DNA of 41,918 nucleotides from Phycisphaeraceae bacterium (GTDB lineage: Bacteria > Planctomycetota > Phycisphaerae > Phycisphaerales > Phycisphaeraceae). Shown piece by piece: positions 32,170-33,142 of this stretch. The position numbers were made by a program, and so were the translations under genes. Within the stretch, counting starts at the first letter, position 1, and each line of letters opens with the position of its first letter. The notes under the pieces were generated by a model, which did no database searches, was not told where the DNA came from, and worked only from the letters and a program-made list of their open reading frames with translations. The DNA is taken from the NCBI GenBank assembly GCA_020831765.1, contig JAFIFY010000018.1:1-41918 (forward strand). The letters run 5' to 3'.

Positions 32170-32198
32170 TTGGCAATTCCCGGTCCAGTGGGTAAAAT
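32170..32198 (+). promoter_or_regulatory. Candidate sigma70 promoter of rpmI-rplT
   Basis: TTGGCA (32170-32175) and TAAAAT (32193-32198) are 17 bases apart, a near-consensus pair. The start would be near 32206, with a leader of about 27 bases before the rpmI ATG at 32233. It explains expression without the usual upstream infC. Confidence 0.6.
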
Positions 32199-32232: not shown

Positions 32233-32448
32233 ATGTCCAAACTCAAGCCGCATAAGGGCTTACTGAAGCGTGTGAAGATCACGGCCACCGGCAAGGTCAA
32301 GTGGAAGCGGGCCTACAACAGCCACCTGAACAGCCATCTGTCCGGCAACAAGATTCGCTCGCTGCGCGGCAAGCGGGTGGCGACGGCCGGTGATATCCCC
32401 CGCCTCGAGCGGATGCTGCATCGGAACCTTCGCGCCGCCGAACGTTGA
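32233..32448 (+). CDS. rpmI: 50S ribosomal protein L35
   Basis: A 71-residue basic protein with the L35 pattern: MSKLKPHKGLLKRVKITATG, KVKWKRAYNSHLNSHLSGNK, RSLRGKRVATAGD. It binds 23S rRNA in the large subunit. The ATG at 32233 follows GGAG by nine bases. Length is slightly above the usual 64-66 residues. The usual upstream partner infC is absent; the dehydrogenase gene diverges here instead. rplT follows after an unusually long 198-base spacer. Confidence 0.96.
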   Translation: MSKLKPHKGLLKRVKITATGKVKWKRAYNSHLNSHLSGNKIRSLRGKRVATAGDIPRLERMLHRNLRAAER

Positions 32449-32473
32449 ACGCGTTTTCAGGTAGCGCTCGATG

Positions 32474-32614
32474 CGCGGCTCTGTCCGCGAATAAAGCGCT
32501 TCGCCGCCCGGTCAGGATGGTCCTGACAAGGGCAAGAATCAGCCCCGGTCGCATCGCGACCATGTGGGCGCACCGGATGAACCGGGCCACAAGACAAGTT
32601 TCCCGAAAAGGGAA
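32474..32614 (+). ncRNA. Structured rpmI-rplT spacer, candidate L20-type leader RNA
   Basis: The 198-base spacer before rplT holds a series of perfect hairpins: CGCGG/CCGCG (32474-32489); GCCC and GTCAGGA with TCCTGAC and GGGC (32506-32533, 11 pairs); GGTCGC/GCGACC (32547-32561); CCGG/CCGG (32573-32585); TTCCC/GGGAA (32600-32614). The last ends about 20 bases before the ribosome site AGGAG. None carries a T-run. L20 represses its own operon through mRNA structures in other bacteria, which makes this a good candidate, but I matched no known leader family. Confidence 0.45.
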
Positions 32615-32646
32615 CCCCGGCCATCCGAAGAATCAGGAGTTGTTCG

Positions 32647-33030
32647 ATGCCACGTGCAGTCAAGGGTGCCGCCCGCCGGCAAAGCAAAGTCCGCTGGTTC
32701 AAGCAGGTCAAGGGCAATCGCCTTGGCCGACGGACCCAGTGGCGCAAGGTCAAGGAAACGGTCATCCGCGCCGGTGTCTATGCCTATGAGCATCGCCGGC
32801 TGCTCAAGCGCGATTTCCGCAAGCTCTGGATCACCCGTATCTCCGCCGCGGCCGAGATGCGCGGTCTCAACTACAGCAGGTTCATGCATGGTCTGAAGCT
32901 GGCCTGTATCGATCTGAACCGCAAGATGCTCAGCGAGATCGCGATCCGCGATCCCAAGGGATTCGATCAGATCGTCGAGAAGGCCAAGGAAGCGCTGGCC
33001 AAAGCCCCCGCCGGCGCGGCCGCCGCGTAA
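32647..33030 (+). CDS. rplT: 50S ribosomal protein L20
   Basis: A 127-residue basic protein with canonical L20 sequence: MPRAVKGAARRQSKVRWFKQ, AGVYAYEHRRLLKRDFRKLWI.RI.AA, LNYSRFMHGLK, NRKMLSEIAIRDP. It binds 23S rRNA early in large-subunit assembly, and in several bacteria it also represses its own synthesis. The ATG follows AGGAG by seven bases. The C-terminal 15 or so residues are Ala/Pro-rich. A strong terminator follows. Confidence 0.97.
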   Translation: MPRAVKGAARRQSKVRWFKQVKGNRLGRRTQWRKVKETVIRAGVYAYEHRRLLKRDFRKLWITRISAAAEMRGLNYSRFMHGLKLACIDLNRKMLSEIAIRDPKGFDQIVEKAKEALAKAPAGAAAA

Positions 33031-33110: not shown

Positions 33111-33142
33111 ACGCCCGTCGCCATAGCGCGGCGGGCGTTTTT
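33111..33142 (+). terminator. Intrinsic terminator after rplT
   Basis: ACGCCCGTCGC (33111-33121) pairs with GCGGCGGGCGT (33128-33138) with one G-T wobble and a 6-base loop, followed by a run of five T residues. It lies about 80 bases past the rplT stop and ends the ribosomal operon before the LOG-family gene. Confidence 0.88.

Follow-up and report, generated by a model that had tools for sequence, protein, structure and literature searches.

A conserved RNA element between rpmI and rplT of planctomycetes is a candidate operator for ribosomal protein bL20

Introduction

Autogenous leaders that bind ribosomal protein L20 (bL20) by mimicry of rRNA are already known in Firmicutes and Gammaproteobacteria, and a candidate has been reported in Deltaproteobacteria. 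Two consecutive G-C pairs and an AA dimer, which dock together, are common to 23S rRNA and the established L20 leaders (Eckert and Weinberg 2020, PMC7247131). The Firmicutes leader (Rfam RF00558, L20_leader) lies upstream of infC in the infC-rpmI-rplT operon of B. subtilis, some 1 kb ahead of rplT, with a terminator at its end; it works by attenuation (PMC6097659). In E. coli, bL20 represses translation through mimicry of 23S rRNA, controlling both rpmI and rplT (PMC10931766), and its target comprises a pseudoknot (site 1) and an irregular hairpin (site 2). In the L20 r-leader candidate of Deltaproteobacteria, regulation concerns no ribosomal protein other than L20 (PMC7247131 Table 1).

Here we analyzed a contig of 41,918 nucleotides from a Phycisphaeraceae bacterium (GenBank assembly GCA_020831765.1, contig JAFIFY010000018.1), which we call the window. 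Its rpmI and rplT genes are separated by a folded spacer that ends in a conserved structure, named here the type-A element, and we compared this structure with its counterparts in other planctomycetes, with 23S rRNA and with the L20 leaders described above.

Results

The two genes flanking the spacer scored above the cut-offs of their families (Table 1), and the rpmI product showed 37-70% identity to that of relatives. They delimit the spacer to exactly 32449-32646, in agreement with the original prediction that 198 non-coding bases part rpmI and rplT, and no plausible gene was found inside these 198 nt. Likewise, no terminator-like site was found on the + strand of the spacer, and a transcription terminator within it was dropped as a candidate for that reason. 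The infC gene is separate from rplT in each of the 13 relatives examined (12 that bear the leader described below, and G003, which has no clear copy of it), and that of the window's own genome is not on the window contig. In that genome, infC was detected in two fragments, each on a contig of its own (G000:C103:3-323 and G000:C23:2833-3150), a split that is probably due to an assembly break.

Table 1. Coordinates of the rpmI-rplT locus and of the features discussed in the text
Feature	Position	Strand	Basis
Promoter-like site TTGGCA-17-TAAAAT, 5′ of rpmI	32170..32198	+	Consensus match only
rpmI (bL35)	32233..32448	+	TIGR00001, 57.9 bits vs cut-off 51.2
rpmI-rplT spacer, 198 nt	32449..32646	+	Set by confirmed flanking genes
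Upstream hairpins (32463-32500, 32511-32527, 32547-32561)	about 32463..32561	+	Inverted repeats
Conserved type-A element, candidate bL20 operator	32574..32627	+	R2 best match, fits relatives' topology
P1 outer helix CGGAUG	32574..32579	+	Pairs with CAUCCG 32622-32627
Core CGGG (consecutive G-C pairs)	32583..32586	+	Pairs with CCCG 32616-32619
Asymmetric loop CCACAAGACAA, 11 nt unpaired, AA dimer last (32596-32597)	32587..32597	+	Sequence
Closing pair G32598-C32615, then bulged U32599	32598	+	Pair kept in relatives
P2 hairpin UUCCC-GAAAA-GGGAA	32600..32614	+	All five pairs with double changes in relatives
rplT Shine-Dalgarno AGGAG	32635..32639	+	Sequence; 7 nt 3′ of P1
rplT (bL20), presumed repressor and target gene	32647..33030	+	TIGR01032, 129.8 bits vs cut-off 65.65
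Intrinsic terminator-like hairpin with U tail, 3′ of rplT	33111..33138	+	

The minimum-energy fold of the whole spacer reached −89.9 kcal/mol, compared to −76.7 ± 4.6 kcal/mol for shuffled versions (z −2.89), and only one of 200 shuffles folded as well as the real spacer. This fold contains the five hairpins that the original prediction had counted, including a stem of 11 pairs with a small internal loop, in which CGGAUG-AA-CCGGG (32574-32586) pairs with CCCGG-C-CAUCCG (32616-32627) around an AA/C internal loop. However, to treat the five as a unit was an overstatement. When the region 32449-32572 was compared with the relatives' loci by blastn, only the window itself and two chance-level 23-nt matches were recovered, and the idea of five conserved stems spanning the spacer was rejected because the upstream ones are absent from relatives. 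The three upstream hairpins are thus probably outside the operator. In contrast, the last two stem-loops, one nested in the other, form a single conserved element that folds on its own at z −3.57, so that the leader originally drawn across all 198 nt does contain a conserved candidate regulator, but one of about 54 nt confined to its 3′ third. Long hairpins were also seen in the 5′ halves of many relatives' spacers (L022, L025, L017 and L005, with about 20 bp in L022); they are unrelated between species and are possibly mobile repeats or processing sites.

We collected the rpmI-rplT spacers of 48 genomes of the same order, which together with the window make 49. These spacers, in which the original prediction had proposed to look for conserved structure, are mostly 100-200 nt long and mutually dissimilar in their 5′ parts, and most of them end in one shared pattern just before the Shine-Dalgarno site, as exemplified by a relative that reads UGCGAGC-CGGG-CCUACAA-G-C-GUUCAG..CUGAAC-C-CCCG-CCA-UCGCG-AAGGAG. 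The layout of this type-A element comprises the outer helix P1, a near-invariant CGGG/CCCG, an asymmetric loop ending in AA (CCUACAA-G or AACCAA-G, for example, in relatives), one closing pair, one bulged base and the hairpin P2. As to spacers elsewhere, the rpmI-rplT spacer of a Planococcus locus (L150) is folded and, at 171 nt, unusually long for Firmicutes, where 15-60 nt is usual.

Two covariance models were built, R1 from 8 relatives (a small MAFFT seed) and R2 from 30 relatives, with the window left out. R1 recovered 17 further relatives at E ≤ 1.1e-4; beyond the spacers, the 186 kb searched gave no match at E ≤ 1. With R2 at E ≤ 1, the element was found on the coding strand in 38 of the 49 same-order spacers, corresponding to the window and 37 relatives, 30 of which were themselves in R2. 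The 11 spacers without a recognisable copy at this threshold include short ones of 33-61 nt, and no clear copy was detected at E ≤ 1 in L002, the closest L20 relative of the window. When R2 was run on 298 whole genomes from the class, each of its top nine matches preceded rplT; the tenth (1e-3) did not, and most matches above about 5e-3 were located elsewhere. In other orders, R2 found nothing at the rplT leader position. Within the same order, the element is mostly located 12-21 nt before the rplT start, the end of P1 lying at a median of 16 nt.

The paired regions showed many of the compensatory changes that the original prediction had named as a mark of a genuine leader. The alignment of 30 relatives used for this analysis was fitted to the model and its percentages therefore lean towards the structure, a bias that is offset in part by shuffles, slides and descriptor controls. 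Standard pairs were formed in 96.8% of cells, compared to 76.3% when shuffled and 42-51% when slid. Double changes affected 11 of the 15 pairs and a total of 86 cells, versus a mean of 21.6 in shuffled alignments and 8-30 when one strand was slid by 1-3 bases, and the covariation score was 0.534, versus 0.150 shuffled and at most 0.101 slid. All five pairs of P2 and all five outer pairs of P1 covaried. The CGGG/CCCG core is silent on covariation because its pairs barely vary: two G-C pairs were invariant in 30 of 30 relatives and the third was G-C in 28 and G-U in 2. The closing pair was G-C or A-U, and the AA of the loop was present in nearly all aligned relatives although it is unpaired. A near-invariant core next to a conserved, unpaired AA is as expected of a binding site. 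As a control, we used a strict text-and-pairing descriptor, which matched 28 of the 49 spacers (the window's included) but only 12 of 2940 shuffled spacers, one of 49 stretches upstream of rpmI and one of 49 reverse strands. Neither the 60 loci drawn from other orders and classes nor a set of 73 loci from Firmicutes and others gave any match.

The window copy is a divergent member of the type-A family. It has every part of the layout, namely P1, CGGG/CCCG, AA, a closing G-C pair, a bulged U and P2, and its outer P1 stem reads CGGAU/AUCCG instead of the consensus UGCGA/UCGCG, so that the sequence has changed and the pairing has been kept. The AA loop carries a tandem duplication of ACAAG (32589-32593 and 32594-32598) that R2 reads as a 5-nt insertion; such a duplication was not seen in the loops of relatives. 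The top match of R2, a model that excludes the window, in the 42 kb was 32578-32627, with 15.4 bits and an E value of 0.19. By proportional arithmetic, a match this good on this strand of the 198-nt spacer has an expectation of about 0.0005. The class-wide R2 search, which applied stricter filters, missed the window copy at E ≤ 0.1.

The type-A element has the AA dimer as well as the two G-C pairs, the published marks of an L20 site. Using a DNA query, we located the corresponding words of helices 40 and 41 in 23S rRNA. At the 3′ strand, where helix 41 runs into helix 40, the sequence was CGGGAAUAAG (CGGG-AAU-AAG) in 23 of the 30 genomes from this order, including that of the window. The leaders read CGGG-n-AA-G, CGGGAAACAAG being one example, and sometimes differ from the rRNA by one base, as does CGGGAAAUAAG (L021). 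Leader and 23S rRNA have the same strand order of helix, CGGG, short linker, AA and next helix; helix 40 opens to the rest of the 23S rRNA, whereas P2 of the leader is capped by a loop. From these secondary structures we infer that the type-A element would correspond to the helix 40/41 junction of 23S rRNA.

A search of the Rfam 15 families, another check that the original prediction had suggested, returned no L20 leader or any other family in the window and the relatives scanned. RF00558 gave no match at its gathering score of 58.7 bits in the window or relatives scanned, and as a positive control it matched three Firmicutes loci. A known Rfam family as the identity of the element was consequently rejected. 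The type-A element resembles RF00558 in its presumed ligand, bL20, and in rRNA mimicry by two G-C pairs and AA (PMC7247131), but it differs in sequence and fold, and it is located between rpmI and rplT, in a spacer whose + strand showed no terminator. With the E. coli operators it would share translational repression by bL20 through mimicry of 23S rRNA (PMC10931766), and one of the two sites there is an irregular hairpin. In contrast to the E. coli target, type A is one compact element between rpmI and rplT, whose conserved structure does not call for a long-range pseudoknot; none was seen in the comparisons made. It would resemble the Deltaproteobacteria candidate in regulating L20 alone among ribosomal proteins, and like that candidate it keeps the two G-C pairs and AA (PMC7247131). 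According to the text description of that candidate, its conserved parts are split by a helix of several pairs, whereas in type A the AA lies in an internal loop adjoining the G-C pairs (PMC7247131). The arrangement that the original prediction regarded as different, a leader acting on rplT only, is therefore unusual but not unique, since the Deltaproteobacteria candidate sets a precedent (PMC7247131).

The same topology was found outside the class of the window. In one order of Planctomycetia, 18 of 30 rpmI-rplT loci showed it with a C-G closing pair, and because a named Roseimaritima record (L115) carries the same element, we tentatively placed this order near Pirellulales. The pattern of these Pirellulales-like loci is [P1]-CGGGC-n-AA-C-G-[P2]-G-GCCU(G/U)-[P1']. 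MAFFT misplaced the hairpin by a base, and this version was scored with a descriptor and shuffles rather than with a covariance model; the descriptor, written after some of the loci had been seen, matched 25 loci (23 distinct genomes) of 96 spacers, compared to 10 of 3840 shuffles. The closing pair hence differs by group: the Pirellulales-like genomes have C-G where the window's order has G-C or A-U. In the former, the base that follows AA is C in the leader and G in 23S rRNA, which counts against mimicry. The C-G version with the CGGGC/GCCUG core was observed among loci L245-L274 and at L115, L116, L118, L121 and L132. In another Planctomycetia order, that of family f45, type A was absent from the rplT leader position.

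In other orders of the window's class, the rpmI-rplT spacer of about 21 loci holds another conserved hairpin, GCUUCYCGGC..UCAGCU-GCCGC (loci L081, L087, L089, L092, L195-L210 and L213). The word UCAGCU in its loop is complementary to an AGCUGA that lies between the ribosome site and the rplT start codon, and pairing of this kind over 6-8 bp was possible in 21 of 22 loci, whereas 11% of shuffled loops reached 6. The pairing word is nearly invariant and the support from covariation is small. No Rfam match to this hairpin was obtained in the loci scanned. It looks like a candidate pseudoknot L20 leader.

Discussion

The conservation, covarying structure, position and rRNA likeness of the element at 32574-32627 make it very likely, on comparative sequence grounds, that this RNA is an autogenous translational operator for bL20 that acts on rplT alone. 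The L20 autoregulatory leader of the original prediction thus holds as a candidate, given the conserved element in relatives, its covariation and the two published L20-site features. We propose that P1 with its CGGG/CCCG and P2, joined by the asymmetric loop ending in AA, would imitate the helix 40/41 junction of 23S rRNA, and that bL20 in excess over free 23S rRNA would bind this mRNA copy and keep P1 paired directly 5′ of the Shine-Dalgarno sequence. At its median distance of 16 nt from the start codon, the end of P1 is inside the usual 30S footprint. Closed P1 would block loading of the 30S subunit and lower rplT translation, with no direct effect on rpmI. Because infC is away from rplT and rpmI is upstream of the operator, the control would concern rplT alone.

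The B. subtilis L20 leader attenuates transcription (PMC6097659), and strong extra hairpins stand upstream of the element in the spacers of the window and of several relatives, so that a bL20 site might instead act by attenuation or by mRNA processing, with RNase cleavage between rpmI and rplT. We consider this unlikely, since in relatives the element runs into the Shine-Dalgarno region and not into a U tract, and the lack of a terminator-like site on the + strand of the spacer makes translation the likelier level of control. It is less probable still that this conserved cis-regulator of rplT has a ligand other than bL20, be it a ribonuclease, a translation factor or a different ribosomal protein, for instance bL35. 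The assignment of bL20 is presumptive and the adjacent gene does encode bL35, but the core matches both the published L20 determinants (PMC7247131) and the helix 40/41 word in the 23S rRNA of the same organisms, and rplT is the gene directly downstream.

The least probable explanation is that the spacer is non-functional intergenic DNA in which a G+C-rich genome has produced stems by chance. The three unconserved upstream stems and the weak score of the window copy taken alone would fit such a view; for the family, it is strongly disfavoured by the covariation and position of the element in relatives and by the shuffle, strand and location controls. A bL20 operator of rplT is the reading that we retain.

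As far as shown here, the fold, the lineage and the inner-operon position of the element are new with respect to Rfam 15 and the literature searched. In that literature, from which most subscription papers were out of reach, we found no L20 leader described in planctomycetes. The type-A element adds a structured-RNA family that is apparently undescribed in the libraries searched and, being compact (about 50 nt), it would allow a direct test of what bL20 minimally needs for recognition, namely two G-C pairs and AA. A further implication is feedback by a ribosomal protein on a single cistron beside rpmI, in genomes with infC elsewhere. Set beside the pseudoknot type of the sister orders, type A lets sensors for one protein that evolved repeatedly be compared. 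We see an even chance that Planctomycetota control L20 by at least two RNA elements that share one position inside the operon, a compact hairpin imitating helix 40/41 of 23S rRNA, present in two classes, and a sister-order pseudoknot that pairs just upstream of the start codon. If this were true, both elements would uncouple the synthesis of L20 from that of L35 and IF3, and the rpmI-rplT spacer would be a place where nature has invented an L20 sensor more than once.
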